From assembly GCA_963855995.1 (NCBI GenBank), contig OY979724.1:11764032-11828031 (forward strand): a stretch of 64,000 nt of DNA, in the 5' to 3' direction. Shown here piece by piece: positions 25,524 through 57,331 of the stretch; the stretch's first letter is position 1, and the number at the start of each line of letters is the position of its first letter. The position numbers were made by a program, and so were the translations under genes. The notes under the pieces were generated by a model. The model had not been told where the DNA came from, made no database searches, and saw nothing but the letters and a program-made list of their open reading frames with translations. Origin of the DNA: Muricea muricata. Taxonomy: Eukaryota > Cnidaria > Anthozoa > Malacalcyonacea > Plexauridae.

Positions 25524-28351
25524 ATGTTGGAGACTGGTGCTGCAAACTATGACGCCTTGGATATAGCAAATGATAGTATGATTCAAGGTGACACTTATCT
25601 AAGTTCAGGGAAGTATGAAACAATTTAGTGAGCAATCAGCAATAGCAAATGTCAATTGACTCTTGGGTAGTACATATTGATCAGTCAGGAATGGCAAATA
25701 GCAATGTCAGTTTAGGCGCAGCCTATCTCAGTTTGGAAGATTATCAAAACGCAATTAAACATTACGAAGAATTTTTAGTCATAAGCACTGTCATTAACGA
25801 TCAGTCAGGAATAGCAAAAAGCAATTGCAATTTGGGCAAAATCTATCACAATTTGGGAGAATACCAAAAAGCAATTCAGCATTATGAAAAAGGTTTAGAA
25901 ATAAGCACCGCTATTGGGGATCAGTCAGGAATAGCAAATAACAATTTCAATTTGGGGAATGCCTATCTCAGCTTAGGGGGATATCAAAAAGCAATTCAGT
26001 ATTATGAAAAAGCATTAGAAATAAGCACTGCCATCGGCGATCGGTCAGGAATAGCAGATAGCAATTGCAATTTGGGTAGTGCCTATTTCAGCTTAGGGGA
26101 ATATCAAAAAGCAATTCAGTATTACAAAAAAGCATTGGAAATAAGCACTGCCATCGGCGATCGGTCAGGAGAAGCAGATAGCAATTGCAATTTGGGCAAT
26201 GCCTATTTCAGCTTAGGGGAATATCAAAAAGCAATTCAGTATTATGAAAAAGGATTGGAAATAAGCACTGCCATTGGCGATCGGTTAGGAATAGCAAATA
26301 GCAATTGCAATTTGGGCAATGTCTATCGCAACTTTGGAGAATATCAAAAAGCAATTCAGTATTATGAAAAAGGATTAGAAATAAGCACTGCCATTGGCGA
26401 TCGGTCAGGAATAGCGGATAACAATGGCAATTTGGGCAATGTCTATCTCAGCTTGGGAGAATATCAAAAAGCAATTCAGTATAATGAAAAAGCTTTAGAA
26501 CTAAGCACCGCCATTGGCAATCAGTCGGGAATAGCAAGGAGCAATGACAATTTGGGCAATGTCTATCGCAGCTTGGGAGAATACAAAAAAGCAATTCAGT
26601 ATTATGAAAAAAGTTTAGAATTAAGCACCGCCATTGGAGATCAGAGAGTAATAGCAACTACCAATGGCAATTTGGGCAATGCTTATCTCAGCTTGGGAGA
26701 ATATCAAAAAGCAATTCAGTATTATGAAAAAGGTTTAAAAATAAGCACCGCCACAGGGGATCAGTCAGCAATAGCAAGTAAGAATAGCAATTTAGGCAAT
26801 GCGTATCTTTATTTAGGAGAATATAAAGACGCGTGGTCGCATCTAGAGGACGCAATTCGACACTTCGATAAAATCTTTTTAAAGTTTGTTCCGGATCGAC
26901 ATAAACTGTCCTTTATAACACAGTATTTTACAACTTATCGTCTTTTAATGACTTGTTTTCTTTCTTTGAAACGGGACAAGTCGGCGTTGTTGGTCATTGA
27001 CCTTGGTAAAGCTGAGGAGCTGCATTTCCGCATTGAAAGAAGTAAAAATCGTGCATACGCGGAAATGAAAGATTTCTCAGTTACGACATGGAATAGAATC
27101 AGAGCCTCCGAGGAGGAAATAGAAATCCACGAAATTCAACAAATTCTGCACACGGAGCAAAATGATACTTCGATATTAGTATTTGCCTTTGACAACAAAG
27201 GGTTTCTAAATATCTGTGTATTAAACGAAGGTTTTGTCTTTAGAATGGTTGATGCTCCAAGCGAAGCAATGCTTTTGCTGTTGATAGAACTTTTTGAAAT
27301 GGTAAATGTTAACGTCGATCGTAATTCTTCGTTTCAAGAAAATACCTACAATCAGGTTAATGATCCCTTAGGTATCTGAAGTCGAAAACCACAACCTATA
27401 GACGGGGTTGGAAAAAATTCTAAATCTAATAGTTGTGGTCGTCAGGAAATTTTAGAAAAATTGTTTCAACTCGTGATTGATCCCGTAAAGAATTCCCTAA
27501 AAGGTAACAAGCTTATCATTGTACCTGATCAATTCTTGTTTTTTGCTCCGTTTTCTGCTTTGGTTGATGCAAACGGCTGCTTTCTCTCTTCTAAATACAG
27601 CATTCAAATTACACCTTCTTTGCATACCTTGAAGGCTAGTATGCAACGAGAACCTGACCCAAACATTGGGTTTGCATTGTTTGTTGGTAATCCAAGTGTT
27701 AAAAAAGTTTGTTTTAACGGAGAACAGTATAATTCTCTACCTGGAGCCGCTGAAGAGGTAAAATATCTTGCAAATCTTTTCCAAGCTACTGCTTTATTGG
27801 GACGTGCGGCGAGAAAACAAGTAGTTCTGGAACTTCTCAGTAAGGCTAGTATAATCCATATAGCTGCCCATGGAGAACCAAAAAGAGGTGAAATAATACT
27901 TGCCCCGAACAAATCTCATGACCAGTCACCAGAATCATTCCTTCTGAGACAGGAGGATATTACAAGTATTTCAGTGCAAGCTCGCTTGGTAGTTTTGTGT
28001 TGTTGTTTTACCGGACAAGGTGAAGTTTCTTCAGAAGGTGTCGTAGGTATAGCTCGATCATTTCTTGCCGCAGGAGCTCGCTCTGTGCTTGCCACTCTAT
28101 GGCCTATTAATGACGCGGCCACAGTAGAGTTGATGAAAAAGTTCTACGACAAACTCTTCCAGGAAACTCCAGTTTGTGAAGCTTTAAAAAGGGCAAAGAA
28201 CTTCTTCCACGAAAAACCAATTAGAGTTTGGGCTCCATTTACTATCTGTGGAGAAGATGTGAAATTTGAAAAACACGAGATTGAAGAAATCAAGAAAAAA
28301 TCTCGTGAATATTTCACTGGTTTCGTTGTACCACATGAACGTTACCCATGA
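25524..28351 (+). pseudogene. TPR-CHAT protein A, disrupted copy
   Basis: Relative of the intact gene at 52799. Aligned with it, copy A has lost the matching ATG, has a one-base deletion, lacks about 41 nt after 25615 and about 71 nt near 25678, and has TGA for a Trp codon near 25657. Then 25649-27379 stays open through about ten 40-residue TPR units. TGA at 27377-27379 (ATC TGA AGT, where copy C has ATC TCG AGT) separates this from an open CHAT half in the same frame to 28351. The CHAT half keeps the His of HIAAHG (27869-27871) and the Cys of LCCCFTG (28004-28006). It is most likely a recent pseudogene. Translation of the separate halves, or readthrough, is possible but not shown. Confidence 0.8.
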
Positions 28352-29376
28352 ACATTTCCCATGCACCACCGGTGCATATCGTTATAGCCATTGTATGCAT
28401 CTAGACTGTGTAGATTTATCATTCTCTGAATTAATAGCATCATTGTTAGAATAGTATAAAATAGCAATATTCATCATCAATGATCACAATACATCATTGT
28501 TAGAATAGTATAAAATAGTAATAGGTTGAATAAGAGAATATTCTAACACAGCATGCCATTGTCTGTGTTGCAGTTGTGCTGCATGTAAGTCATTTTAAGT
28601 GATAAGATACTTCAATGATTCATAGTTGTGGAGGTGAAACTATAAGCGACTTTCATTAAAGTTCTTCGAAAAATGCAGTGCAAAACTATCGGGAGTTTAA
28701 GTTGTTAGAAAGTGTGTAGTTAGTCATGTTGTCCGTTGATAAGTGCTACATTAGATCTGCCGAATGCGCAAGAAGGGAGGAGATACTGAATGTATAGTTC
28801 ACTCTTTTGTCAGTTTTTGTCCACTGTTAATCGAAAAATCAGATTCTTATTGCAGTTGCACACATTACCAAATTTGTTCTCAAACAAGAGGAAAAAAAAT
28901 AGAAAATATAATTCTGGCAAGTAAATCCTGGAGTTTAGGTAAGCTTGAAATAGTTTTTGTCATTCAATTTAATAATTTGAATCACAGACATGCTTGCAGG
29001 CTCAAAAAAATGAAGCGATTTCGTTAACGTGATTAATTTTGCAATGAGTTTAAGTTACGTTTTCAAGCTGCGATTTTGATTCTGGCGTATGGAATAATAT
29101 ACAATATTCGCAATCACTCGTGACATTACGAATCGCAACTAGGTTTCAACACTGACGTCAGCTAGTGTTTTATCCATTTCTTTAACTATCCATGGTGCTA
29201 ACACCAGAATTCAAGTTTATTTAGTTTTGTGGTGAAATCTGAAATGCCATCACTTTATATGCGTCTGCATTAAATTGCATACGCCAGAATGCGAATCGTA
29301 TTCGACAAACGCAGTGTAAACATACAGCTGCCTTAAATACGTTCCCCGTATGTTTGCATGGTGAATATCAAATTTA

Positions 29377-29524
29377 AATATAATTTTGGGGAAACAAACA
29401 TTACAATTTATAATCGCAAAGCTTTCGATCCGTAAGCTCGAATCTTTATCATTGTTAACAATAATGCATTATCAAAAGCTTTGCGATAGTAAATTTACGT
29501 GGTGTTTCCACAAAATTATATTTT
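29377..29524. mobile_element. MITE family M1, copy 2
   Basis: Inverted AAATATAATTTT ends and inner GCAAAGCTTT pair, as at 2082-2254. The matching copy at 58361-58513 was duplicated with the segment. Confidence 0.7.
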
Positions 29525-29837
29525 AAGCTGCCTTTAAGTTTCAGTGAATCCCTAAGCGTGGGAACTCAGACAGATATTTTCAGATATATTGCCTACACAG
29601 TTTTAGCTGCAGAAAATTACCAAAATCATTGGCGAAATAAAACGACTTTCAGACCGAATTATTACCAGTTTTAAGAAAACTTTTTCAAATATAAAATTTT
29701 CAAAATTTTTGAAGAAAAGCAAAAGACCATTGAAAAATATATGGCTTAAATATGTGCGATATCCAGCTCTCAGCCAGCATCTATTCTGTTTTCGTTTCAC
29801 TTAATGTTGTAAATTCTATTCTAATTGAATGCTTTAA

Positions 29838-30205
29838 GGGGCTGTGTCAGGCTACTTTTTACCAAAAATGTCCTGCATTAAAAAAACTGGTGTGAAATGT
29901 GAAATCTGCAACAATATATGGGTAGTATTAACTATTATAAGTATATTATAGGCTTCAACATTCAATGTTGGGCAATATGTTATAAAAATTTGACCAAAAC
30001 TTGAAAAGCTGTTTGCCAACAACTTTTTATAAGATGACAAATACCATCCAACTCAGTCCTTGACTAATCATGACCATGCGTATTTCTGTACAATTATTTT
30101 GTATTTGTTATCGATTTAATTTGGGCTTGCAGCTATTATTTTTGAGAGTTTATTGCAAAATTTGCAGGTGTATGAGAATTACTCAAAATGGCCTGACACT
30201 GCCTC
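29838..30205. mobile_element. TTAA-flanked inverted-repeat element, copy 1
   Basis: The ends GGGGCTGTGTC and GACACTGCCTC are inverted and flanked by TTAA on both sides. The copy at 58830-59197 has perfect GGGGCAGTGTC ends. TTAA is the piggyBac target, but the end sequence is not the usual piggyBac CCC, so the class is uncertain. Confidence 0.55.
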
Positions 30206-31294
30206 TTAAAATGTGTCATTTATAAGGAAGCTAATGTTGTTCTAATATCAATATGATACGGTTAACGAATGATAGAGTATTTGCTGGCTGCTAAAACTTT
30301 GCTGGTGGAAACAACGTTGCAGAAAACCTAGTGGAAATTTGTGTGAACTTTGATAACGCTTCTTCATGTAAAATTACTTAAATTCATTTTTCTTGCAACA
30401 AGCTTAACCGTCGACGTGTTTACTGGATTAAAGTCCTGACAAAAAAAATCAATTATAATATATGTGCATTTAAACTTCGCTCTCAAAAGTTGCCATATAT
30501 TTGATTTAACGCCGCTAACGTCGTTTCCTTTTTGGACATTTCTAAAATTTGCAGTCGCTCACAATGGTATTAATATCAGACACTATAGCCTAGAATTACA
30601 AACAACCTGAAGAAAGTTTATGCAAACTTTACTAACGAAAGACGATATTCAGAAACGCTTTCAAAGGAGATGTTAATAATAAAGGAGGAACGCTTTTAGT
30701 TAAAAACGAAAAATTATTTGGTTGGAATACGATAAAATTATCTTCTTAATTATCTTATTTCATTTTTTGTACAAGTTTGTATAGACTTTTAATTTGTTAC
30801 TGCTAATACAACAATCGCATTAAGGTATGTAACACATACAGTCCAGTATTTAAGTGACTGAGAAATGAAAGCATTGAACAACATTTTGTAACGTGCGTGG
30901 TGGAAGATTGACGATGGAAGAAAATAGATGGAGCAAGCATTACGATCAAAAGATAAGATCACTATCTTGAAATGGAAACAGAACTCACTTGAAAACTTTC
31001 AACACGGACAGCAGACATATGATGTTGATGCTCAGTGTTTTCTCGTGTACTTTGGGAAAAGTAACGTTAAATTTCACAAACTAGTGTGAAACGTTGAGAT
31101 GGAACATTGATGAAACTATTATGACTTTAAAGAAATATCATAACGGGAATTTCAACACTGCGCTCCTTTCTGATCCTTGACAAAAGAACGACGGTAGTTA
31201 TTCCTATGTTACCTGAGTGAATAAAGAAATGAAGAGTATAAATGAATCGCTGATTTATCGTGGAAAACTCAATATCCTAAGATTTCAGCTGATT

Positions 31295-31890
31295 ATTTCC
31301 ACGAAAGATATATATTCCGCGTCTTGCCTTCTTGTTCTTATATCGAAAGAACTTCAAATTCAAAAGAGCAAAGAAACTTGACGGACCAAGAATTCTTGTG
31401 TTCAGTCGAACATCAAAAGAGTGAATACTAATAACTGAAACATTTGCTCGAGGAAGTTTAAAGAAAGTTATAAAGTTTTACGGAAGAAAATGCAAATGTT
31501 TATTTTATTCAAACAACGACATGCAGTAACGGTATAATACTGGTGATCTGTGACATCATGCAACTGGTTAATCCATCAAATGGTTATGCTGAAAATAAAA
31601 GATATCTATCCCGCGTCCTGCCTTCTTGTTCGCCAAGGACTGCAGTTATATCGAGAGAAATTCAAATTCAAAAGAGCAAAGAAACTTGACGGAACAAGAA
31701 TTCTTGTGTTCAGTCGAACAACAAATGACTGAATACTAATAACTGAAACATTTGTTCGAGAAACTTTAGAGAAAGTTATAAAGTTTTACGAAGGAAAATG
31801 CAAATGTTTACTTTGTTCAAACAATGACATGCAGTAACGGAATATTACTGGTGATTTGTGACATCATGCAACTGGTTAATCCATCAAATG
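31295..31890. repeat. Tandem duplication of about 290 bp
   Basis: 31295-31582 and 31592-31890 share CTTGCCTTCTTGTTC-like, TTCAAATTCAAAAGAGCAAA and GTGACATCATGCAACTGGTT blocks in the same order. A more eroded pair is at 60305-60720. Confidence 0.75.
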
Positions 31891-33267
31891 CTCAAAATAA
31901 AACACTTATTACTGGTGTCGCAGCCACTATCTTAATGGTTCACTTTATGTAACGTTGAACTTATACATCCTGGTCGTAAAAACATGGGAAAGAATCCACA
32001 GTTAACTCTTGTTGTCATGCTTTTCAAAATATTTTGAATGATCAGCTGAGATGAAAATGATCATGGACATGATGACTAAGGCTATGTACATTCGGAAAGG
32101 GCGCAGCTGTCGTGTTGGATGTTTTACACGCTGAAAGTTAAAATCTGTTAACAGAAACTCAAAATTGAAGAAACACCACGAAAAGGATTGTGACAGTCTA
32201 CAAGTTAGTCCACGCACGTTGCTCGCAATGTTGATAACGTTCGGTAACTAAGAACCTTTTAAGTAAAAATCTTCTTTCTAAATATAACCAATTAGTTTTA
32301 GAAAACTATTGTGATAGTGTCTGATATTATTCACAATTCCATTGTTGCAATTAGTGGAGTAATACTAGTATGCTATTGCAAACGCTAAAATTTGATTGGC
32401 TACTCTACTCGCTATCTATTGCTCATAGATAGCGAGTATAGCAAAACAATCATTTTCCTGCTGCAAAATGGTTTAAACTCAACTCTCTGCTGTGGAATAT
32501 TTTGTTTGATCTGTGATTAGGATCACAACAGTTAGATTACTAACACTCGATTTTGGTTCCGCTTTGTAATCTAATTGTTAATTTGTGTCGGAGGTGTGGG
32601 AAAGTGACAGAGGTGTACAAGCTTGTGCAGATATTGCAGCATAAAAAATAATTTTAAAGTTTTGTGTCATTATTAAAGTAATTTTTGCATGTTTAAATAT
32701 AAATGCTTGCAAAAATAAGATACGTTTATATAGTCGTAACTCGGCTTACATGCCTCTAACATTCTGACGCCTCTCAAAGAATTTATTATTATTAAAAGAC
32801 AAAAAACAGTTCAAATTGTGATAGTTACTTAGTTTATTTATTTACGAGAACACTTTGAAGTTCAGCATCTATTGCTGGGTTTTTTAATGTTAGAGTGTTT
32901 GAATGAAAAGTAATTTGTGGACATCAAAATTTGTGGACAAAAACTCCTGTATAATGGTATATATCATTCATAGAATTTTGCATGCATTAATTTTGTTCAA
33001 TACATTAATGTATATGATTTATTATTTGTTAAAATATATTGTTAAACTCTAAAGATGGCTACTTTCTTTATTATTTCTTATATCTGTATCTTGTGTGGTG
33101 TTTCTGCACTGAGACAAATTGCTTAGACAAAATCTGAGCATGAAATATGAATGGATTCAAATGGGAACAAATAGATAACATGCGTTCACTTAGTTATTGC
33201 ACAGGAGGCCTCGAAAATCATTACCACTATAACAGTAGTGTACCCAGCCCGAGAATTCTATAGTCCT

Positions 33268-33505
33268 GGGGCGGGTTGTATGAAAGATGGATAGCGCTAT
33301 CCACTGGGTAGAGATTTTTTCAACTGTCGCAGAAAGGCATAAAAAAGCAACGACACCAGGGATATTAAACTCACAAGAGATGAAAGTGACTTCAACTCGA
33401 AAATGCTGAACTTTAATATGAGTTTTACCAGTTACTGAGCATGTTCAGAAAGTTTTAAGAAAATCATTATCCGGTGGAAAGCGCTATTCACATTTCGTAC
33501 AACCG
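33268..33505. repeat. Dispersed repeat family R3, copy 2
   Basis: Resembles 4955-5150. GGTTGTA with a GATAGCGC palindrome on the left and GCGCTATxCACAT with GTACAACC on the right suggest inverted ends. Matching copy at 62110-62350. Confidence 0.6.
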
Positions 33506-33987
33506 AGCACAGTTATGCAAATTATCATCATTCATCTCTTGAGATTGATTGTTTTCACAGTCAATGAAGATGGAAATATTTGCATCGTCAGGCTGGCTGC
33601 GCTACTGGGCACTAACATTCTCTGTCACCAAATACTGTCTGGAATAAGCATGCTTTTTTTAATTATAACCTGGTTGCCCTTTCGAGCGTTTGTTTATTAC
33701 CTCTATATGATGTGGAAACCACGCAGTTTTGAACTGTTATCTGTTATCTAATGTGATCTTACATATGCCTTTTGATAGTAAGTGATGTCATGCTTTCAAT
33801 AATTCAGGTGGAGAAAATGCATAATAAAGCAAATTTGAGGTAAAGCAATACTGTTATGAACATTGTCCTGTCCCTATTTTATTAAACGTCTTCGCGCAAA
33901 TGCTGAAACTGACTTTGAAACGATAATCGAAGTGAGGATATAAATTTCTATTTGCTTTAGCAAGGATGAAATAAATGATCTGCTTTA

Positions 33988-34303
33988 GGGGCTGATTATA
34001 TGGTCCCGCTTACCCGGGATTAAGTGAAGCGTAAAATGATCTTGAGGTATTGAAAAATGTCATTTTATGAAATGAAACGACCAAAGTTCGAATGCTTTCA
34101 GCATTGATCAATACAAAGATAGATTTAACAAAAATTAATGCGATATACACCATTTTGTTTACTTCATATTTCGGCAAAACGAAAATCTCAAGCAATCAAG
34201 GATTAAGCATTTTTTACAACGTAAACTATGACTTATTTCAATACCTCAAAATCATGTTACGCTTCACGTAATCCCGGGTAAGCGGGATCATATAATCAAC
34301 CCC
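33988..34303. mobile_element. MITE with TTA target-site duplication and a preserved empty site
   Basis: 316 bp with inverted ends of about 44 bp (GGGGCTGATTATATGGTCCC and its complement), flanked by TTA (33985-33987 and 34304-34306). The matching place in the second segmental copy (near 62826) has one TTA and no insert. A TTA duplication points to the PIF/Harbinger superfamily. Confidence 0.85.
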
Positions 34304-34748
34304 TTAGAACTACATAACAATCTAGTATTTTTTTATTTTTAACCCGTCTCTCGGGCGAATGCTGCTCGTCTGCACCGTGGTTGGTGCCCATGCACATTAG
34401 GATCGATAAAAATAATATTATTTTGTGTTTTACCACAAAGATGCCGACGTGCAAGTGAAGAAACAAAATTATTAAAGTCCGCTCCCCACTAGCGACATAA
34501 GCACAAGCTAAAACAAAAGACAAAACAAAGAAATGCAGTGAAGTGTGTGAAATGAGCATCGACTGAAGCACAAGCACTACGAGCATGAGCATGAAAATTC
34601 TTCCTGTTTTGGCTTCATAAACCTCTGAGGAAAAGTTATCCTTTGTTATGTTGCTTACGCTTATATACGTCGCTAGTGACGAGCAGGCTTAAATCAAGAA
34701 GACAGATAAAAAATAAAAGCATATGTTGTTATAAACAGCTACACTAAC

Positions 34749-34883
34749 CTTCGTGCCGTAAGGTGGCATGTTTAACAGGAATAACGAGCTGTCGTTGGGT
34801 ATACGTTAATCTTCTTCTCTGACAGAATGACTTTTCAAGTACATAACATGATGAACATCTGAGTTTCTTTCCATTCCCATCCG
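34749..34883 (-). pseudogene. RRP7A: RRP7A-like exon, disrupted copy
   Basis: 135 nt with acceptor and donor. The translation resembles the start of ribosomal RNA-processing protein 7 (HHVMYLKSHSV ... LFLLNMPPYGTK), but AAA of the sister exon at 63261-63395 is TAA here (plus-strand 34806-34808). No other RRP7A exon was found nearby on this strand. Confidence 0.65.
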
Positions 34884-35837
34884 CTAAGTTGGAAATATTT
34901 TACAGATCAATATTCATGTTTTAGACACGACTTATTCTTGATAAATAATCACGTAACTTCGCACAATAGGCAAACATTTTGCTGAGCGAAGTCGTTTAGT
35001 CAACGTTAAAAAACGTCAATTATTCTTCCTCAAAAAGTGTAAAGAATGTAAAAATATTCGTGTTTGCAAGGCATGAAGGGCAGTGGAATTTTAAGAACAA
35101 TGAAAAGATAATACAACATTTTGGTCGTTGAATTGAGACTGGTTTCAACAATTGTTTGGCTAACTTCTACCAGGACTTCCACAGTTTAAAGGAAATTTCG
35201 TTCAAAATTATAATCACTGTAGCGGGGGCAATATTAACCCTTTATATTATACACTAGAATCTTTTTAAAAGTTCTTTGTCTTTCTTTTGGTCAACCCCCT
35301 GTCAAGGCAGGCGCATAAAACTCGATTTACAACTCATTCCGGATTGAGTTCATTCCATTTTTCATTCCGGGCGGACACTTGATCCGGAATGAAATGCTGT
35401 CCTGGAATCATGTATGCATATATACGTGGATGGAGATTTCGCTCTGGAATGAGACTCGGAATGAAATTGACGTCTATTACAGTCAAAATTAAAGATTGTT
35501 TGCAAAATGGGGAGTTTCATTAACGTACTAAATGTGTATATGCTAAAATTAGTGCATGACCTTATTTCATATAGTCATGTTCAATCACGATATTTCTTTA
35601 AATGTTTATGGATTAGTTTATGAAGTTTCATTGCCGGTGACGGCGGATATTCGACGAGTTATGTTTTGTCTTACAAATATCTGGAGTGGGATTCATATAC
35701 AAATGTTAAAATTCAAGACGGGAACAGTTGAGAAAAATTTATCATCAACTATAGGTCGTACTTTTACTTACGGGCAGCGTTTATTCTGAATTTTGTAACA
35801 TAGACTATTAATCTATTGTTTAATTCCAATTCGTAAT

Positions 35838-36265
35838 CAGGGGCGTAGGAAGGTGGGGGGGGGGGGCACGTCCCCCCCCCAACTTTTAAAGTGATGAGAC
35901 CAAGTGCACTTTTTAAAAGGAAACTGCCCTTTTTGCATGGCTAACAATAACATTGGTATGCCCTTCTGAAAGATACGAGATTGTGACTGAATGATTGTTG
36001 GTAAAACATTTTGTAAGGTCCCCATATTTCACTACAATTCACTACATTTAAGGCTTTTAGATGGGGTTTTCTTGCCCCTTGCGATAGTCACATTAATACG
36101 AATAGATGCATGAATTGCAGATAATCACTATTTAACAATTTCAAAGACAATTGCGTTGTATAGCCACCGTAAATGAATTTACTTGAAGGTGCTCTTTTTT
36201 ATGAAAAAGCGCCCCTGAAAGCCAGAGCCCCCCCCCCAACTTTTAACTTGCTTCTTACGCCCCTG
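35838..36265. mobile_element. Non-autonomous hAT element with 8-bp target-site duplication
   Basis: 428 bp beginning CAGGGGCGTAGGAAG and ending CTTCTTACGCCCCTG, flanked by TTCGTAAT on both sides (35830-35837 and 36266-36273). The subterminal sequence is poly-G or poly-C. No transposase is encoded. Confidence 0.88.
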
Positions 36266-38369: not shown

Positions 38370-40600
38370 TACCTGGCGGCTCTTAACAGGGCTCAAGCTC
38401 CTCTTGCTCCTCGACTCCCTACGATTACTTTGTTAAATTCCCGTCATTAATTCCCGATCACTTTTGCCAAAGATTGACGAGCTTTCTATCCTTTCGCCGC
38501 AATACCGGTCGGATATAGCAGTTATTGCCCAGACATGGTTAAGACCTGACGTGAGCAGCGAGCTTAACTATCAAGAGATATAACTTGCATCGAGCGGACA
38601 GACGTGGTGGCGGGGTATGTGTCTTTTCTTCTATCGACATCTCTTGTAAACGTCGTTTTGCATGATTTAGAAAGTTCTGATTTTGAATGTCTATATGGCT
38701 ACGGTTGCGCCCTTATCGTTAGCCTAGACCATTTACAGGCATTGCCTTTTGCGCCCAATTTTTTTGCTCCGCTAGGGTCATCGGACCATAACGTCGTTCA
38801 CTGGACCCCAAAAGGTATATAGTCATTTGAACTGTGCCACTGTCCCCCCCCTCCTACCACACGTTACACCTGCAGTTTTCCACGGTCGGGGCTTGAAGCT
38901 TTCGGACGTTGGATCTGTGGCGTTCACTGGTTTGCTGATGTTGACCAAGTCTCAACTATATAACAACTTGACCGATTCCCTAACAACCACTCTTACTACC
39001 GCTGTTGATATTTTCTTTCCCTTGAAGCCTATAATTAAGTTTCACACATCCGACAAACCATGGATTTCCCATGCCATCAAGTCCCTAATTCGGAAACGAC
39101 AGAAAGCTTTCAAAAACCACGACTCAGTCTTATGGAGGCACTATAAGAACAAGGCTAAGAAAGCCAAGGCAAGAAAGCTTTTTACGAAGATAGGATTAAG
39201 CACCTTAAGAATGAGGATTGTAAGAAATGGTGGAGATTTGTAAACAGCGTATCACGAAGACGAAATAAATCACAAACGCTTACTATCGAGAAGGGCGGGT
39301 CAACTTTAATGAAGATATCCCCCCTGGATATAAACTGTATACCAACTATCTGTCCATCTGTTAATGAAGATATCCCCCCTGGATATAAACTGTATACCAA
39401 CTTTCCTTTCAGCGGAAGAACCCCTCCCAAAGATCTTTGACTGCTTGTCTCTCAAAAGTATTGGAAGATTTTGTGGTAAACTGGATTATCTCGGACCTAA
39501 GTCATAAAATCGACCCCAGCAAATTGGATGTCTAAAAGGCTCCTCTACAGCCTATTGCCTACTCGATATACTTCACAGCTGGTTAAGCCATCTTGACAAC
39601 CCTGGGAATTACATCCGTACTTGTTTCCTTGATTTCTGTACAGCATTCGATCGCATTGACCACAACACCGTCATTTCGAAACTTATTAGCTTAGGCGTAC
39701 GAACAGCCCTGATCCCGTGGATATGCAGCTTCTTGTCTGGTCGGATGCAGTCTGTTAAAGTTCACTAATTTTCTCTAACTAGGCTCCTGTTACTGCCCGT
39801 GTCCCGCAAGGTACCAAACTTAATTCTATTGAAGCCTGGTCGGCGAGTAAATAACATGAAATTACAACCTAAAAAGTGCAAGGACTTTACCATCTCCTTC
39901 CTACGTAACCGGCCACAAAATTTGTTTTCCACTTTGTCCATCAACTCCCAGCCCTTAGAGAAGGTTGCCGGTTTTAAATTGCTGGGTGTTACCTTACAAA
40001 ATGACCTAAAGTGGAACGCCCACGTCGATTCAATCACGTCCTAATAAGCCTCAAAGAGTCTCGGCATTTTGCATGTTTTGCATAATTTCGGAATCCCTGT
40101 TCAGGACCTTCTAACCAACTACATTTCCATTATCAGATCTGTGCTGGAATACTGTTGTGCAGTCTGGAGTACGTCTATTCCTTTTTACATTTCTGATAAA
40201 ATCGAAAGGGTTCAACGCCGTGCTCTACGGATTTTATATCGAAGCATGTCCTATTCAGCTGCGCTTCCTACCTCCTCCCTCCTCCCTTTGACCGACCGCC
40301 GTGATATTCTTAGTAAGAAGGTGTTGAATAAAATAGCAATACCATCATCGCGCCTCAACCATCTTTTACCTCTGACACGGTTTTGGTCGCATGGCGGTGA
40401 ACTTCGTTGCTCTAATAATTTCAGTCTATTTAAATGTAGGACGGGAAGATTTAAGAACAGTTTCTTTCCAGCTATGTGCTTACGTACTACAATGAAGTCA
40501 TGACTGTTTTTAATTAGGTTTACAATCATTTACAATGTATATTACTATGAGTTTCTTAGTTGTAGATAGAATATATTCTCATTATTTATAATTTTATACC
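38370..40600 (+). mobile_element. Decayed CR1/L2-like non-LTR retrotransposon
   Basis: Broken frames on the plus strand give, in order: endonuclease fragments (VIAQTWLRPDV near 38520, then LGSSDHNVVHW near 38790); a spacer typical of this group (DKPWISHAIKSLIRKRQKAF, KKWWRFVNSVSRR); reverse-transcriptase pieces (CFLDFCTAFDRIDH near 39640, FLSGRMQSVKV, ARVPQGTK); and the C-terminal region (QRRALRILY) ending near 40500. The block that should carry the catalytic F/YADD is deleted, and several frameshifts and stops are present, so it cannot be active. A 54-bp tandem duplication lies at about 39309-39400. Confidence 0.85.
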
Positions 40601-43380: not shown

Positions 43381-43381
43381 A

Positions 43382-45889
43382 GAAATAAGCACCGCCATTG
43401 GGGACCGGTCAGGAATAGCAAGTAGCAATGGCAACTTAGGCAGTGCCTATCTCAGCTTGGGAGAATATCAAAAAGCAATTCAATATTATGAAAAAGGTTT
43501 AGAATTAAGCACCGCCATTGGGGATCAGTCAGGAATAGCAAGTAACAATGGCAACTTAGGCGATGCCTATCTCAGCTTAGGAGAATACCATAAAGCAACT
43601 CAATGTTATGAAAAATGTTTAGAAATACGCATCGCTATTGGGGATCAGTCAGGAGAAGCAAATAGCAATGGCACCTTAGGCAGTGCCTATCTCAGCTTGG
43701 GAGAATATCAAAAAGCAATTCAGTATTTTGAAAAAGGTTTAGAATTAAGCACCGCCATTGGGAATCAGTCAGGAATGGCAAGTGACAATATCAATTTAGC
43801 CAATGCCTATTGTAATATGGGAGAATATCAAAAAGCAATTCAGTATTGTGAAAAAGGTTTAGAATTAAGCACCGCCATTGGGAATCAGTCAGGAATAGCA
43901 AGTAGCAATGTCAATTTGGGCAATGCCTATTGTAATATGGGAGAATATCAAAAAGCAATTCAGTATTATAAAAAAGTTTTAGAATTAAGCACCGCTATTG
44001 GGGACCAGTCAGTAATAGCAAGTAGCAATAACAACTTAGGCAATGCCTATAACAGCTTGGGAGAATATCATAAAGCAATTCAATATCATGAAAAAGGTTT
44101 AAAAATAAGTACTGCAATTGGTGATCAGTCAGGAATAGCAAGTAAAAATTGCAACTTAGGCAATGCCTACCGCAGTTTGGGAGAATACCAAAAAGCAATT
44201 CAGTATTATGAAAAAGGTTTAGAATTAAGCACCGTCATTGGGAGTCAGTCAGGAATAGCAAGTAACAATGGCAACTTAGGCGATGCCTATCTCAGCTTAG
44301 GAGAATACCATAAAGCAACTCAATGTTATGAAAAATGTTTAGAAATACGCATCGCTATTGGGGATCAGTCAGGAGTAGCAAATAGCAATGGCACCTTAGG
44401 CAGTGCCTATCTCAGCTTGGGAGAATATCAAAAAGCAATTCAGTATTTTGAAAAAGGTTTAGAAATAAGCACTGCTATTGGGTATCAGTCAGGAATAGCA
44501 AGTAACAATAGCAGTTTGGGCAATGCCTATCTCAGCTTGGGAGAATATCAAAAAGCAATTCAATATTATGAAAAAGGTTTAGCAATAAGTACTGCCATTG
44601 GCAATCAGTTAGAAATAGCAAGTAACAATGGCAATTTGGGTAATGCCTATCTCAGGTTGGGAGAATATCAAAAAGCAATCCAGTATCATGAAAAAGGTTT
44701 AGAAATAAGCACCGCCATTGGTCATCGATCAGGAATAGCGAGTAACAATAGCAATTTAGGCAGTGCGTATCTTGATTTAGGGGAATATAAGGACGCACGG
44801 TCACATCTAGAGGACGCAGTTGGACACTTCAATCAAATCTTTTTAAAGTTTGTACCGGACCGACATAAACTGTCCTTTATAACACAGTATTTTAAAACTT
44901 ATCGTCTTTTAATGAGTTGTTTTCTTTCTTTGCAACGGGACAAGTCGGCGTTGTTGGTCATTGACCTTGGTAAAGCTAAGGAGCTGCATTTCCGCATTGA
45001 AAGAAGTAAAAATCGTGCAGACGCGGAATTGAAAGATTTCTCAATTACGACATGGAATAGAATTAGAGCCTCTGAGGAGGAAATAGAAATCCAACAAATT
45101 CAACAAATTCTGCACACGGAGCAAAATGAAATTTCGATATTGGTATTTGCCTTTGATATCCATGGGCTTCTTAATATCTGGGTATTAAACGAAGGTTTTG
45201 TCTTCAGAAAGGTTGATGCTCCAAGCGATGATATCCTTCGGTTGATGGTAGAACTTCCTGAAATGGCAAATGTTATCGTCAATCGTAATTCTTCGTTTCA
45301 AGAAAATATCTACAATAAGGTTAATGATCCCGGTCGAAAACCACGACCCACAGGTGAGGTTGGAAAAAATTCTAAATCTGTTAGTTGTGGTCGTCACGAA
45401 ATTTTAGAAATATTGTTTCAACTCGTGATTGATCCCGTAAAGAATTCCCTAAAAGGTAACAAGCTTATCATTGTACCTGATCATTTCTTGTTTTTTGCCC
45501 CGTTTTCTGCTTTGGTTGATACAAACGGCTGCTTTCTCTCTTCTAAATACAGCATTCAAATTACACCTTCTTTGCATACCTTGAAGGCTAGTATGCAACG
45601 AGAACATGACCCAAACATTGGGTTTGCATTGTTTGTTGGTAATCCAACTGCTGAAAAAATTTCTTTAAACGGAGAATGCTTTATTCCCCTAGTTGGAGCC
45701 GCTGAAGAGGTAAAATATCTTGCAAATCTTTTCCAAGCTACTCCTTTATTGGGACGCGTGGCGAGAAAACAAGTAGTTCTGGAACTTCTTAGTAAGGCTA
45801 GTATAATCCATATCGCTGCCCATGGAGAACCAAAAAAAGGTGAAATTATTCTTGTATTAATATTTTTAATGCCCTCACAAACCTCATGA
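43382..45889 (+). pseudogene. TPR-CHAT protein B, truncated copy
   Basis: The open frame has no ATG at its 5' end. Upstream of 43382 the TPR sequence continues only as a deleted, out-of-frame remnant (about 43300-43380). About 12 TPR units of 40 residues follow, including two nearly identical pairs 720 bp apart (43501-43740 and 44221-44460). Next come the linker helices and the first half of the CHAT domain, including HIAAHGEP with the catalytic His. Similarity to A and C ends abruptly at about 45854; the frame adds about a dozen unrelated residues and stops. The second half, with the catalytic Cys, is absent, so it cannot be a CHAT peptidase. Confidence 0.8.
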
Positions 45890-47295: not shown

Positions 47296-47351
47296 TCAAA
47301 ATCCTTACAATCACATCGTGTGGAATTTGTAGAATAATTGTAAGGATTTTG
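47296..47351. repeat. Hairpin with 16-bp stem
   Basis: TCAAAATCCTTACAAT and its exact reverse complement are separated by about 24 bases. It is followed closely by an R1 repeat. Confidence 0.6.
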
Positions 47352-47354
47352 ACC

Positions 47355-47530
47355 CAACCCACAAAATAGGAAATAAACAGAAAGGCCACTCGAGTCGGAA
47401 CCTTTGAAGTTTGTGCCCCCACGCATGTCGCATTACGAATCTTCATTATACACGCTCTGGTCAGTCAATTTTATTTTCTGGCCAATAAAAACATTGAACT
47501 GGCCGTTTTATTGATATTTGATGCTACTTA
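47355..47530 (+). repeat. Dispersed repeat family R1, copy 3
   Basis: Close match to 23478-23660 and related to 785-990. Confidence 0.65.
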
Positions 47531-49892: not shown

Positions 49893-50585
49893 AGCTAACG
49901 AAAGGATATTGTAATGTTTATATCTAAATAGTCTAGTCAACAAGGTTTGGGTGTTGCCAACATTGATCTTGAGTTTTTCTATCGAAAATATCGAACAGTT
50001 TCAATCTAATTTTATGAAACACGTTTAAACTTAACTAAAGGATTTGCTTATAACAAGAGATACTACGTCTTCGTTTTATGTAGTTTTAAATTTCAAATCC
50101 TCGAATTTGTATACAGTTAAGTTAAAGTATGTCTTACAATAGTTTTACACGTTAATATTAGAATATTTATAGCTTCTCGGATAGTCGCTTGCGCAAAAGA
50201 CTTTCTAGTCGTGATATGGTATTATGATCATTATTATAATGACCAATAAGAATGCAACCGTAAATCTGGGACTTTCTCGCAATAGCCATTAAGTTTGGCA
50301 ATCTCTATGAAGCAAAAGGTTTTGGCATTAAGGAATTGACTACAGAACAGAGTAGCAGCCACTCCTCCAGGGATATGTATAGCTCAGTATACGCACACTA
50401 AACTAGCGAACGTCATACATTAATCAATTTTTATCATATACGAGGTCCCCTGGATTGCTTTTGCAAACAAAAACATATTTGGCGTCCCGCAACTACGCAG
50501 TATGGTGCTATGCTATAATTTTCGAAAGTACTATATATGGTATATGTTATTGTAATTCTGATGAATCATAACTTGTTTATGTGGT
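49893..50585. repeat. Duplicated downstream block of TPR-CHAT B, with no gene before it
   Basis: Nearly identical over about 690 bp to 46143-46835, which follows copy B. Here it is followed directly, at about 50586, by sequence that elsewhere stands upstream of copy B (40925 onward). Confidence 0.8.
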
Positions 50586-52484
50586 TGTAAAAATTTTTTG
50601 TGTAAGAATTGTGGGCCGTTGGCCTTCGAAATACAACCAGTTAAGATGTGTGCATGTTGCAATTTGAACTTTAGAAAGTCTGTGACTGTGAATTAAATTT
50701 CTGATTTTAATCTTTAAAAAAATTTCGTGCATGGACCTCTGGCTTGCATTATTCTAAAGACTAAAAAAAATTCGTTATAAACAGAGGCTGCAAGGAATTT
50801 AGTCAACGCTTATCCCACAATACAAGTCTACACATTTTATTCAATGAAACCTCCCTCTACGTATATATACCTGAGATGTGGTCGTTGTGCACAGTCTAAT
50901 TTTTACCTTGGCCGCTGAAATTTTTATCACCACTGAGGTACAAAGTGAAAATTTTACTTAACATTAAAAAGAAATCATTCAAACGATTACAGAAAGGGGT
51001 GTGAACAACAAAGTTAGATACATAGCCGGTTTGGTATCGACCTTGAATGTGCGGTCAGATTACAGTATTAATATGCTTAGCACTTTTTAACTACTCCGGA
51101 GATATATTAATTAAAGAATTTTTTGTTTCCGTTTTTCACATTTCATTTTTGTAAGGAAAGACGCTTAATAAATTATTCTCGCATGATTTTGCACACCTGT
51201 CGTTTGCAGGCGTCCGGATTTATTGCCACCAGTTAATGTGGAGAGCGAATAGCCAGTAAAAATGGAGAGCATAAAAAATAAGTAGAGTAAACATGACAAA
51301 ATATTTTATATTTATATAATAAAAGCTCTTTCTGGATTTTCATTGGTCGAGAGATGTGCCTTACTATGGTACACACGCACAGATGACGTCATCGAATCAT
51401 CGTTCACGTTTAATTAAGGCACACTATACAGGCTGTTAAATAATTTAATACATACTTTAGAAACAATTTTGCTGTTACCCTTCACGATATAGAGAAAAAT
51501 AATGAAATGGATCAGCTAATTGGAAGCACATGCAATTAAGAGTACCCCTACTAAAGTCGGAAACTTTGAAATGCGCGTCCGTACATGTCGCAGAAATAAT
51601 GAAACTTGTGTTGATGCTCAGTAATCATGTTTAGTAAAGACAATTGTAATTCTACCAGAAATTTCAAAGCAGGATAAATTATTTTTCATTGAATTTTTTG
51701 ATCGAAAAACAATTTGACAACTACTGCCCGTGCGTTTCCGTGTTCTCAGATCACCAGAAACTTGCACCCATCAGAAAATCCGTTTATGACAAGAACACTT
51801 TAAAAATTGTATGACTGACCACTTCGCGATGTTTACATATGACCACACTGCAAGGATCGCGATCGTAGACAGGATGATTTTCATGAACTTATATATATTT
51901 GTCACCATATATGATCACATTGTTAGTGTGATAGAGTTGGATAGAGTTGGAGTTCAGAGTGCCAGAGAGAGTGGACATGCTATATTGGTATCCATTACCT
52001 TTTTGATAACGTAGCAAACATCTTGTTGGTAATATGAGAGACAATTGTGGGAATTTGAGTGAAATCGTGCATCGTATTATACTGTATAAGAGAAAATCCA
52101 CCCACTAGTCTTTCGGCCACGTATCTGTCCATCTGTACGTATGTACCCCTGTAAATAGGTGAGCAATCCACGTTTCAAGTGATTTCCTACTTAACTAAAT
52201 TGTCAAATGACGCAGTAATGAAATATCATTGGCAAAGCGGTTAGGATAATGGAAAAAATTTAACTAATTCGTTTCGTGATTACATTGTTGTGATATGAAA
52301 CAATAACCGCTCACCTTAAGATTTCTAGCCCGCTCGTTTACACCAATAAAAAAGTAGGAAAAGGAGGTGGGGGCATCTCACCGTAGCAAAAAAAGGTGGG
52401 GGCATGTCGATTTTACTAGAATGCATTTCGGTTATCAGTAAGCATATGCGGTTATAGTAAGAAAAGAGATAAATTGAACACAAG

Positions 52485-52625
52485 TGGGAAAAAAATTTCA
52501 ACACAAATGTGAAAAAATTTCAACACAAGTGTGAAAAAATTTCAACACAAATGTGAAAATAATTCAACAAAGGTGTGAAAAAAATTCAACACGAGTGCAA
52601 AAATTTCAACACAAGTGTGAAAATA
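52485..52625. repeat. Minisatellite upstream of TPR-CHAT C
   Basis: About six units of CACAAGTGTGAAAAAATTTCAA type, about 170 bp before the start codon. Counterpart of 25185-25325. Confidence 0.85.
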
Positions 52626-52798
52626 ACCTATTGTCTTCTGTCTGTTCTTCAAAAGACGTTGACGTGCCCTTTTCAACACTTTCAGACCACCATGCCTTCT
52701 GGTAAAATCTACAAGTGCCCATCTTTTTTGCTACGGTGAATTGCAACGGGTATACTCTGCTTTTTTAGAGCTGAAGTGAAAGATTAAGAGATAAATGA

Positions 52799-55700
52799 AT
52801 GTCATCCAAACGCAACTACAGAAAATGTTCGGAGACTGGTGGTGCAAACTATGACACTTTGGGTAAGGCAAATGATAGTGTGATTCAAGGGAACACTTAT
52901 CTAAGTTCAGGGAAGTATGAAACGGCTATTGTGTACTATAAGAAGAGTTTAGAAATTTACACTAATTTTGGTGAGCAATCGGCAATAGCAAATGCCAATT
53001 GGCTCTTGGGTAACGCATATTATCGGATTGGAAAGTATAAAGAAGCAATTAGCTGTTTCGAAGAAGGCTTAAAAATAAGCACTGCCATTGGCGATCAGTC
53101 AGGAATAGCAACTAACAATGTCAGTTTGGCCAATGTCTATCTCTGTTTAGGAGTATATCAAAAAGCAATTCAATATTGCAAAAAGAGTTCAGAAAAAAGC
53201 ACTGCCATTGGCGACCAGTCAGGAATAAGAATAGCAATTACCACCAGCAATTTGGGCAATGTCTATCTCAGATTGGGAGAATATCAAAAAGCGATTCAGT
53301 ATTGTGAAAAAGGATTAGAATTAAGCACCGTCATTGGGGATCAGTCAGGAATAGCAAGTAGCAATGGCAATCTGGGCAATGCCTATCTCAGCTTGGGAGA
53401 ATATCAAAAAGCAATTCAGTATTATGAAAAAGGATTAGAAATAAGCACCGCCATTGGGGATCAGTCAGGAATAGCAAGTAGCAATGGCAATTTGGGCAAT
53501 GCCTATCGCAGCTTGGGAGAATATCAAAAAGCAATTCAGTATTGTGAAAAAGGATTAGAAATAAGCACCGTCATTGGGGATCAGTCAGGAATAGCAAGTA
53601 ACAATGGATATTTGGGCAATGCCTATCTCAGCTTGGGAGAATATCAAAAAGCAATTCAGTATTATGAAAAAGGATTAGAAATAAGCACTGCTATTGGTGA
53701 TCAGTCGGGAATAGCGAATAACAATGGCAATTTGGGCGGTGCCTATCGCAGCTTGGGAGAATATCAAAAAGCAATTCAATATTGTGAAAAAGGATTAGAA
53801 ATAAGCACCGCCATTGGGGATCAGTCAGGAATAGCAAGTAGCAATGGCAATTTGGGCAATGCCTATCGCAGCTTGGGAGAATATCAAAAAGCAATTCAGT
53901 ATTGTGAAAAAGGATTAGAAATAAGCACCGTCATTGGGGATCAGTCAGGAATAGCAAGTAACAATGGATATTTGGGCAATGCCTATCTCAGCTTGGGAGA
54001 ATATCAAAAAGCAATTCAGTATTATGAAAAAGGATTAGAAATAAGCACCGCCATTGGGGATCAGTCAGGAATAGCAAGTAGCAATGGCAATTTGGGCAAT
54101 GCCTATCGCAGCTTGGGAGAATATCAAAAAGCAATTCAGTATTGTGAAAAAGGATTAGAAATAAGCACCGTCATTGGGGATCAGTCAGGAATAGCAAGTA
54201 ACAATGGATATTTGGGCAATGCCTATCTCAGCTTGGGAGAATATCAAAAAGCAATTCAGTATTATGAAAAAGGATTAGAAATAAGCACTGCTATTGGTGA
54301 TCAGTCGGGAATAGCGAATAACAATGGCAATTTGGGCGGTGCCTATCGCAGCTTGGGAGAATATCAAAAAGCAATTCAATATTGTGAAAAAGGATTAGAA
54401 ATAAGCACCGCCATTGGGGATCAGTCAGGAATAGCAAGTAGCAATGGCAATTTGGGCAATGCCTATCGCAGCTTGGGAGAATATCAAAAAGCAATTCAGT
54501 ATTGTGAAAAAGGATTAGAAATAAGCACCGTCATTGGGGATCAGTCAGGAATAGCAAGTAACAATGGATATTTGGGCAATGCCTATCTCAGCTTGGGAGA
54601 ATATCAAAAAGCAATTCAGTATTATGAAAAAGGATTAGAAATAAGCACTGCTATTGGTGATCAGTCGGGAATAGCGAATAACAATGGCAATTTGGGCGGT
54701 GCCTATCGCAGCTTGGGAGAATATCAAAAAGCAATTCAATATTGTGAAAAAGGATTAGAAATAAGCACCGTCATTGGGGATCAGTCAGGAATAGCAAGTA
54801 GCAATGGCAATTTGGGCAATGCCTATCTCAGCTTGGGAGAATATCAAAAAGCAATTCAGTATTATGAAAAAGGATTAGAAATAAGCACCGCCATTGGGGA
54901 TCAGTCAGGAATAGCAAGTAAGAATGGAAATTTGGGCAGTGCCTATCTCAGCTTGGGAGAATATCAAAAAGCAATTCAATATTGTGAAAAAGGATTAGAA
55001 ATAAACACCGTCATTGGAAATCAGTCAGGAATAGCAAGTAACAATGGCAATTTGGGCAATGCCTACCTCAGCTTGGGAGATTATCAAAAAGCAATTCAGT
55101 ATTATGAAAAAGGATTAGAAATAAGCACCGCCATTGGGGATCAGTCAGGAATAGCAAGTAAGAATGGAAATTTGGGCAATGCCTATCGTAACATGGGAGA
55201 ATATCAAAAAGCCATTCAGTATTATGAAAAAGGATTAGAAATAAGCACTGCTATTGGTGATCAGTCAGGAATAGCGAATAACAATGGCAATTTGGGCAGT
55301 GCCTATCGTAATATGGGAGAATATCAAAAAGCGATTCAGTATTATGAAAAAGGATTAGAAATAAGCACTGCTATTGGTTATCAGTCGGGAATAGCATGTA
55401 ACAATGGCAATTTGGGCAGTGCCTATTGCAGCTTGGGAGAATATCCAAAAGCAATTCAATATTGTGAAAAAGGATTAGAAATAAGCACCGTCATTGGGGA
55501 TCAGTCAGGAATAGCAAGTAACAATGGCAATTTGGGCAAAGCCTATCGTAATATGGGAGAATATCAAAAAGCGATTCAGTATTATGAAAAAGGATTAGAA
55601 ATAAGCACTGCTATTGGGGATCAGTCAGGAATAGCATGTAACAATAGCAATTTGGGCAGTGCCTATCTCAGTTTGGGAGAATTTCAAAAAGCAATTAAGT

Positions 55701-57331
55701 ATTATGAAAAAGGATTAGAAATAAGCACCGCTATTGGGGATCAGTCAGGAATAGCAGTTGACAAGAGCAATTTAGGCAAGGCATATCTTGATTTAGGAGA
55801 ATGTAAAGACGCGTGGTCGCATCTAGAGGACGCAATTAGACACTTCGATAAAATCTTTTTAAAGTTTGTTCCGGATCGACATAAACTGTCCTTTATAACA
55901 CAGTATTTTATAACTTATCGTCTTTTAATGACTTGTTTTCTTTCTTTGAAACGGGACAAGTCGGCGTTGTTGGTCACTGACCTTGGTAAAGCTAAGGAGC
56001 TGCATTTCCGCATTGAAAGAAGTAAAAATCGTGCGGACGCTGAAATGAAAGATTTCTCAGTTACGACATGGAATAGAATCAGAGCCTCTGAGGAGGAGAT
56101 AGAAATCCAAGAAATTCAACAAATTCTACACACGGAGCAAAATGATACTTCGATATTAGTATTTGCCTTTGACAACAAAGGGTTTCTAAATAGCTGGGTA
56201 TTAAACGAAGGTTTTGTCTTTAGAATGGTTGATTCTCCAAGCGAAGCAATGCTTTTGCTGTTGATAAAACTTTTTGAAATGGTAAATGTTAACGTCGATC
56301 GTAATTCTTCGTTTCAAGAAAATACCTACAATCAGGTTAATGATCCCTTTGATATCTCGAGTCGAAAACCACGACCTATGGGCGATGTTGGAAAAAATTC
56401 TAAATCTAATAGTTGTGGTCGTCAGGAAATTTTAGAAAAATTGTTTCAACTCGTGATTGATCCCGTAAAGAATTCCCTAAAAGGTAACAAGCTTATCATT
56501 GTACCTGATCAATTCTTGTTTTTTGCCCCGTTTTCTGCTTTGGTTGATGCAAACGGCTGCTTTCTCTCTTCTAAATACAGCATTCAAATTACACCTTCTT
56601 TGCATACCTTGAAGGCTAGTATGCAACGAGAACCTGACCCAAACATTGGGTTTGCATTGTTTGTTGGTAATCCAAGTGTTAAAAAAGTTTCTTTTAATGG
56701 AGAAGAGTATAATTCTCTACCTGGAGCCGCTGAAGAGGTAAAATATCTTGCAAATCTTTTCCAAGCTACTGCTTTATTGGGACGCGCGGCGAGAAAACAA
56801 GTAGTTCTGGAACTTCTCAGTAAGGCTAGTATAATCCATATAGCTGCCCATGGAGAACCAAAAAGAGGTGAAATAATACTTGCCCCGAACAAATCTCATG
56901 ACCAGTCACCAGAATCATTCCTTCTGAGACAGGAGGATATTACAAGTATTTCAGTGCAAGCTCGCCTAGTAGTTTTATGTTGTTGTTTTACCGGACAAGG
57001 TGAAGTTTCTTCAGAAGGTGTCGTAGGTATAGCTCGATCATTTCTTGCCGCAGGAGCTCGCTCTGTACTTGGCACTCTATGGCCTATTAATGACGCGGCC
57101 ACAGTAGAGTTGATGAAAAAGTTCTACGACGAACTCTTCCAGGAAACTCCAGTTTGTGAAGCTTTAAAAAGGGCAAAGAACTTCTTCCACGAAAAACCAA
57201 TTAGAGTTTGGGCTCCATTTACCATCTATGGAGAAGATGTGAAATTTGAAAAAGACGAGATTGAAGAAATCAAGAAAAAATCTCGTGAATATTTCACTGG
57301 TTTCGTTGAACCACATGAACGTTACCCATGA
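52799..57331 (+). CDS. TPR-CHAT protein C: TPR array fused to a caspase-like CHAT peptidase
   Basis: One exon, 1510 residues. After a short polar N-terminus come about 24 TPR units of 40 residues (roughly residues 15-1000; consensus SLGEYQKAIQYYEKGLEIST). A helical linker follows (KIFLKFVPDRHKLSFITQYF), then a CHAT domain (about 1205-1490). The predicted dyad is His1351 in HIAAHGEP and Cys1396 in LCCCFTGQG, matching the HG and CxTG motifs of CHAT (clan CD, relatives of caspases). TPR-CHAT proteins are known as proteases activated by a TPR-bound partner, for example Csx29 in type III-E CRISPR systems; here a cytosolic sensor-protease role is inference. Several TPR units are identical at the DNA level. 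Two ATGs overlap at the start (52795 and 52799); only the second opens this frame. No poly(A) signal was assigned. Confidence 0.9.
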   Translation: MSSKRNYRKCSETGGANYDTLGKANDSVIQGNTYLSSGKYETAIVYYKKSLEIYTNFGEQSAIANANWLLGNAYYRIGKYKEAISCFEEGLKISTAIGDQSGIATNNVSLANVYLCLGVYQKAIQYCKKSSEKSTAIGDQSGIRIAITTSNLGNVYLRLGEYQKAIQYCEKGLELSTVIGDQSGIASSNGNLGNAYLSLGEYQKAIQYYEKGLEISTAIGDQSGIASSNGNLGNAYRSLGEYQKAIQYCEKGLEISTVIGDQSGIASNNGYLGNAYLSLGEYQKAIQYYEKGLEISTAIGDQSGIANNNGNLGGAYRSLGEYQKAIQYCEKGLEISTAIGDQSGIASSNGNLGNAYRSLGEYQKAIQYCEKGLEISTVIGDQSGIASNNGYLGNAYLSLGEYQKAIQYYEKGLEISTAIGDQSGIASSNGNLGNAYRSLGEYQKAIQYCEKGLEISTVIGDQSGIASNNGYLGNAYLSLGEYQKAIQYYEKGLEISTAIGDQSGIANNNGNLGGAYRSLGEYQKAIQYCEKGLEISTAIGDQSGIASSNGNLGNAYRSLGEYQKAIQYCEKGLEISTVIGDQSGIASNNGYLGNAYLSLGEYQKAIQYYEKGLEISTAIGDQSGIANNNGNLGGAYRSLGEYQKAIQYCEKGLEISTVIGDQSGIASSNGNLGNAYLSLGEYQKAIQYYEKGLEISTAIGDQSGIASKNGNLGSAYLSLGEYQKAIQYCEKGLEINTVIGNQSGIASNNGNLGNAYLSLGDYQKAIQYYEKGLEISTAIGDQSGIASKNGNLGNAYRNMGEYQKAIQYYEKGLEISTAIGDQSGIANNNGNLGSAYRNMGEYQKAIQYYEKGLEISTAIGYQSGIACNNGNLGSAYCSLGEYPKAIQYCEKGLEISTVIGDQSGIASNNGNLGKAYRNMGEYQKAIQYYEKGLEISTAIGDQSGIACNNSNLGSAYLSLGEFQKAIKYYEKGLEISTAIGDQSGIAVDKSNLGKAYLDLGECKDAWSHLEDAIRHFDKIFLKFVPDRHKLSFITQYFITYRLLMTCFLSLKRDKSALLVTDLGKAKELHFRIERSKNRADAEMKDFSVTTWNRIRASEEEIEIQEIQQILHTEQNDTSILVFAFDNKGFLNSWVLNEGFVFRMVDSPSEAMLLLLIKLFEMVNVNVDRNSSFQENTYNQVNDPFDISSRKPRPMGDVGKNSKSNSCGRQEILEKLFQLVIDPVKNSLKGNKLIIVPDQFLFFAPFSALVDANGCFLSSKYSIQITPSLHTLKASMQREPDPNIGFALFVGNPSVKKVSFNGEEYNSLPGAAEEVKYLANLFQATALLGRAARKQVVLELLSKASIIHIAAHGEPKRGEIILAPNKSHDQSPESFLLRQEDITSISVQARLVVLCCCFTGQGEVSSEGVVGIARSFLAAGARSVLGTLWPINDAATVELMKKFYDELFQETPVCEALKRAKNFFHEKPIRVWAPFTIYGEDVKFEKDEIEEIKKKSREYFTGFVEPHERYP
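53461..54780 (+). repeat. Higher-order tandem repeat inside the TPR array
   Basis: Three 120-bp unit types, X (...SSNGNLGNAYRS), Y (...NNGYLGNAYLS) and Z (...NNNGNLGGAYRS), follow the order XYZ XY XYZ XYZ. 53461 to about 54050 is identical to 54061 to about 54650, line by line. Confidence 0.9.

Follow-up and report, generated by a model that had tools for sequence, protein, structure and literature searches.

A cluster of three TPR-CHAT copies, A, B and C, in the window (the whole 64,000-nucleotide stretch of Muricea muricata DNA analyzed here) raises the question of whether an animal TPR-CHAT gene encodes a working protease, and whether the gain and loss of its tandem copies points to a role in immunity. 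The answer we prefer, with moderate confidence, is that copy C is an intact TTC28-like member of the TPR-CHAT family and likely a TPR-gated cysteine protease belonging to the separase/Csx29 clan, with copies A and B as decayed relatives. The features of copy C are as follows.

52799-57331 (+): copy C, intact TPR-CHAT gene, single open frame from ATG to stop, 1510 aa
52799-55870 (+): TPR array of copy C, 24 pattern-matched 40-aa units plus 1 degenerate N-terminal unit (by eye)
55796-56422 (+): final TPR with the linker leading into CHAT, residues 1000-1208
56423-57235 (+): CHAT domain (Pfam PF12770), residues 1209-1479
56849-56851 (+): codon of His1351, within IIHIAAHG of CHAT
56984-56986 (+): codon of Cys1396, within LVVLCCCFTG of CHAT

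The initial annotation described copy C as a 1510-codon open frame with a His/Cys dyad, and this description held: the frame is full, the CHAT domain is full-length and the residue numbering is correct. The chance of a random open frame of 1510 codons was ~3e-45 for one given frame at the local base composition, a value that carries the caveat that the frame is largely repeat. The Pfam profile PF12770 matched copy C with 186 bits, above the curated cut-off, over positions 1-289 of 289. By pattern, 24 TPR units were counted in C, 10 in A and 12 in B, each unit being 40 residues (120 bp) long, and the long array of copy C followed by one C-terminal CHAT domain is the architecture of animal TTC28-like proteins. 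The linker between them probably corresponds in position to the pseudo-protease half found in separase and Csx29. Note that CTCTGCTTTTTTAG at 52755-52768, shortly 5' of the copy C ATG and retained in copy A, resembles a 3' splice site, so that a 5' untranslated exon is possible.

His1351 and Cys1396 were aligned with the catalytic H585 and C627 of the Craspase TPR-CHAT protein, and when CHAT domains were aligned with bacterial relatives, both columns were invariant among the non-gap rows. The bacterial relatives were found by two patterns, one containing the Cys and neither including the His, so that the count of conserved Cys is partly selected. Copy C has the complete dyad of the CHAT family, and copy B is without the Cys. 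The residue after the Cys is Phe (Phe1397) in copies A and C, at a position where 66 of the 77 non-gap rows have D or E, suggesting that activation may differ from that of Csx29.

Modeling of the CHAT fold, which the initial annotation had proposed, supported its comparison with Csx29. An AlphaFold model of residues 867-1510 of copy C reached a pLDDT of 87 and a pTM of 0.88, and a fold search with it returned Csx29/Craspase and separase as the top structural matches; the predicted structure has the TPR-linker-CHAT fold of Csx29 as well as the fold of the separase protease domain. The presumed adjacency of His1351 and Cys1396 was judged indirectly, as both residues are predicted to follow core strands of this confident model and are aligned to Craspase. 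DdvA was the one CHAT protein that plain sequence searches against solved structures brought up, and it was the sole match of the copy A CHAT domain and also of a 5-row profile. A 79-row profile matched 222 sequences, the best 60 of the 222 being nearly all TPR proteins, and Csx29 was reached in solved structures by the CHAT-only profile alone.

In Csx29, according to the available part of PMC10028731, the TPR array detects the activator and passes the signal on to the active site in CHAT. If copy C works in a similar way, its long TPR superhelix would bind a partner on its concave face. This binding would be relayed via the linker, freeing the His1351/Cys1396 dyad of CHAT, and the freed dyad would then cut a substrate protein.

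The other two copies and the duplicated segments around them are listed below.

25518-28351 (+): pseudogene of copy A with the N-terminus in shifted frames, then 10 TPR units, a single in-frame stop and a complete CHAT
43379-45854 (+): fragment of copy B with 12 TPR units, a linker and the His half of CHAT, no start
24885-35489 (no strand assigned): segmental duplication unit with copy A, 10.6 kb
52016-63993 (no strand assigned): segmental duplication unit with copy C, 12.0 kb, reaching the window end
25169-25323 (no strand assigned): 22-bp minisatellite a few hundred bases 5' of copy A, common to C
52477-52623 (no strand assigned): 22-bp minisatellite a few hundred bases 5' of copy C, common to A

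One intact and two decayed copies fit the birth-and-death pattern suggested in the initial annotation. Copy A was said to have deletions and stops. The deletions are real, since DNA alignment with C showed a 1-base and a 41-base deletion together with a replaced start codon, but only a single stop was present in the 2.7-kb frame of TPR and CHAT. Specifically, the N-terminal homology of copy A begins at about 25518 and is readable in shifted frames only, the TPR frame opens at 25649, and past the sole in-frame stop (27377-27379) the frame is unbroken through a complete CHAT to 28351, with both dyad residues kept and a match of 186.6 bits to PF12770 (profile 7-288). Misassembly or a wrongly called base might account for the single-base lesion. 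We considered whether copy A makes two working proteins, TPR and CHAT apart, and left this reading, though the CHAT frame is clean, because the start is lost and the N-terminus is frameshifted. In copy B, the TPR array runs from about 43379 without an in-frame N-terminus, and the CHAT domain covers only 3-154 of the 289 profile positions. The Cys half of CHAT is absent from copy B, and tblastn over the whole window matched it in A and C only, in agreement with the earlier statement that B had lost its start and this half.

The initial annotation did not mention that A and C lie in a shared segmental duplication, with B outside the shared segment. A and C represent a recent segmental duplication, and B is more diverged and truncated. 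Identity between the two units was 91.8% at 26828-31382, 94.4% at 31567-33988 and 91.4% at 34304-35489, and non-coding mismatches in four aligned blocks amounted to 6.8% and 4.6% in the long two and 10% and 12% in the short two; synonymous divergence in CHAT was 0.041. In the comparison within the window, no homology with C was seen downstream of copy B, and the match with A was limited to 47 bp; copy B also had two pieces, 213 and 200 bp long, in common with the region upstream of C.

Omega between A and C was 0.25 in CHAT (7 nonsynonymous and 8 synonymous changes; Fisher p 0.008), 0.62 in the linker and 0.42 in linker plus CHAT (p 0.015), and comparisons with B gave 0.65-0.93. For the His half of CHAT, polarized nonsynonymous (N) and synonymous (S) changes were 16 N/4 S on B, 1 N/2 S on A and 0 N/1 S on C; the linker had 29 N/10 S, 5 N/1 S and 4 N/4 S, respectively. 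Most of the nonsynonymous differences thus fall on B, a count that, as the polarization used no outgroup, takes in the branch that A and C have in common. Most simply, B would have been free of constraint, or diverged, for a long time, with A under constraint until recently, although no constraint is apparent in the linker of A. The low omega in CHAT could alternatively stem from gene conversion between the two copies A and C.

Several other features were observed in the window. Two tandem alpha/beta-hydrolase genes, which we take to be AADAC-like, occupy 18116-21604 (+), with Abhydrolase_3 matches at 19107-19907 and 20342-21604; the piece at 18116-18625, with no Pfam match, was assigned to the first of them by eye. 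A MAP2K4/6-like kinase exon at 14840-15112 (-) matched MKK4 in PDB by phmmer (E 6.6e-18) with no Pfam match, and further exons of this gene were seen by eye, probably on to 13813. The N-terminal region of a dynein heavy chain lies at 1056-1517 (-) (DHC_N1, E 1.9e-23) and perhaps extends to 9486, the frame at 9037-9486 (-) being dynein-like by eye with no Pfam match. These dynein, MAP2K and abhydrolase neighbors are in keeping with an animal genome, and the pattern of the TPR-CHAT family suits an anthozoan. A (TA) run of 46 copies was found at 15857-15949. Between A and B, a probable broken retroelement was located at 38776-40500 (+), where 1 of 3 scanned pieces gave a reverse transcriptase match with an E of 3.5e-4, below the curated cut-off.

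TPR units turn over most visibly in copy C. Pairs of units with at least 99% DNA identity numbered 13 of 276 in C, 1 of 66 in B and 0 of 45 in A, and unit identity in C peaked at lags of 2, 3, 5 and 8 units, which together mark recent unequal exchange within C. Positions within the unit were numbered by the L7-G8-Y11-A20 pattern, which we take to set the TPR register. Amino-acid entropy over all 46 units was greatest at positions 2, 5, 3, 12, 24 and 9. The concave set of Magliery and Regan comprises positions 2, 5, 9, 12, 13, 33 and 34, as given in the accessible text of PMC1261162. When 42 of the 46 units (35 distinct; the last unit per array and C1 removed) were used, this set was more variable than the other positions within 1-34 (Mann-Whitney p 0.003); positions 33 and 34 of the set vary little, and positions 3 and 24, outside it, vary much. 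In the register control, mean entropy was 1.41 in register, 1.29 at +3 and 0.28-1.11 at eleven other shifts, a modest control for the concave set. The variation on the concave face suggests, as far as sequence can tell, that the copies may differ in what they bind. Note that variability of concave positions is a general behavior of TPRs according to the same text (PMC1261162).

Over all units, omega was 0.76 for the concave set and 0.30 elsewhere, and on concave positions it was 0.63 in C, 0.94 in A and 0.70 in B; a position set picked post hoc gave 0.85. Positive selection was not found by TPR position class, omega being below 1 in every class. Single-position omegas exceeded 1 at concave positions 2, 5, 9 and 12 (28, 1.9, 4.4 and 1.5, respectively) and also at the non-concave positions 3, 10, 16, 18 and 30; as some come from very few synonymous differences and they carry no significance test, they would speak neither for nor against diversifying selection. 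The initial annotation regarded birth and death of tandem copies with fast TPR turnover as typical of recognition or immune families. The turnover itself was seen, but unequal exchange yields it whatever the function.

These results argue fairly well for an intact protease and hint weakly at an immune role of the cluster. TTC28, the putative human homologue of the family, is described as a cytokinesis protein in the available part of PMC12314368, which weakens the immune reading, as do the omega values below 1 in both TPR position classes. Copy C could accordingly be a TTC28-type cell-division or cytoskeletal scaffold that keeps the CHAT fold for structure or binding and cuts nothing; we consider this possible but somewhat unlikely, as the dyad is retained in C and even in the decaying A, and a housekeeping scaffold would hardly be expected in hundreds of copies that vary in TPR length. 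It is also conceivable, though quite unlikely, that copy number and TPR turnover are neutral, arising from recombining 120-bp units and segmental duplicates with no selected recognition role. Unequal exchange predicts just such near-identical unit pairs (13 of 276 in C) and lag peaks (2, 3, 5 and 8), A and C do lie within a large segmental duplication, and two of the three copies are broken; on the other hand, the A-C omega of 0.25 in CHAT (p 0.008) and the bias of amino-acid variation toward the concave face stand against neutrality.

That this cluster responds to microbes in symbiosis or under heat stress, instead of serving anti-pathogen defense, also seems to us improbable. In the portions available, 56 TTC28-like genes were differentially expressed, mostly down-regulated, in coral given a bacterial strain under heat stress (PMC10668361), and TTC28 is listed in a table under establishment and maintenance of symbiosis (PMC10363134); however, this evidence comes from other loci in the named coral studies, and expression is not function. 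As for gasdermin as a possible substrate, coral gasdermin is reported in the text at hand to be cleaved by coral caspase-3 (PMC8866957), so that a CHAT protease would not be needed for that step. Returning to the gated protease that we prefer for copy C, a broader and unlikely extension is that corals hold a large, fast-renewing set of Craspase-like TPR proteases, whose concave faces, differing from copy to copy, would sense microbial or stress ligands and whose CHAT domains, where they bear the dyad, would cleave in response. If so, truncated copies such as B might be decoys if expressed.

Among prokaryotic sequences, the nearest were cyanobacterial CHAT-TPR proteins, which were 27-39% identical across the 80 loci kept; in the plasmid collection, 179 records matched, the best 30 of the 179 were listed and 7 loci were fetched, the best plasmid match among those listed being 34% identical. 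Around the catalytic Cys, the cyanobacterial proteins mostly have SAC, then D/E/N and TG, and copy C has CCCFTG. In two of the seven fetched loci (five annotated), L001:1-3499 and L005:644-5436, the cyanobacterial TPR-CHAT gene adjoins a caspase-family gene. IMG/VR yielded no relatives, either with the copy C C-terminus (10 stretches matching the pattern) or with a mixed alignment (16 stretches), and tblastn against the phage collection gave no match. The cluster was not assigned to a known defense system, as the PADLOC matches were limited to weak ones to BovA (20 bits) and others driven by TPRs.

Copy C shares with Csx29/Craspase of type III-E CRISPR, its best structural match, the order of TPR, linker and CHAT as well as the aligned dyad, with ~12% identity over the structural match. 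To our knowledge, an animal would not be expected to have CRISPR partners. The NCBIfam Csx29 model NF041237 scored 21.3 bits on copy C against a cut-off of 300. According to the accessible text of PMC10028731, Csx29 has eight TPRs, compared with about 25 in copy C, and an acidic residue after the catalytic Cys, E659, without a counterpart in copy C. With separase, the match at the sequence level was weak even when the CHAT profile was used (E 0.013-0.018); unlike separase, copy C carries TPRs of the canonical type, and its CHAT domain matches PF12770.

The closest likeness is to coral genes already in print, and copy C is a fresh member of this published expansion; the cluster is real and mostly ordinary. 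In the available part of PMC12314368, TPR-CHAT genes number 276 in Acropora tenuis and 304 in A. digitifera (reference haplotypes), and 6 to 362 among the examined corals; Nematostella has 15 and most other animals have 1-2. The Acropora genes lie in tandem arrays and differ widely in TPR length. What TPR and CHAT do is said there to be not well understood, even in the human homologue. TTC28-like genes are also expanded in Montipora (PMC9145168), and apoptotic signaling has been suggested for them (PMC6208414), both according to the text available. A test of CHAT activity in an animal was not found in the accessible CHAT, TPR-CHAT and TTC28 literature on corals and cnidarians. Like copy C, the TPR-CHAT or TTC28-like proteins of Acropora, Montipora and Pocillopora have a TPR array followed by a single CHAT and arose by tandem duplication, and those of Acropora (31-3832 aa) vary greatly in TPR length, as this cluster does. 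Catalytic residues, pseudogenes and a varying TPR face are not discussed in the portions of these papers at hand. To the family, its coral expansion and the apoptotic suggestion, our analysis adds evidence on the dyad and the fold, purifying selection in the A-C comparison of CHAT, more rapid change in B, and a bias of TPR variation toward the ligand-binding face. With hundreds of such genes per coral genome in print (PMC12314368), a dyad in the right predicted fold together with this bias would turn an "expanded TTC28-like gene" into a testable family of ligand-gated proteases.
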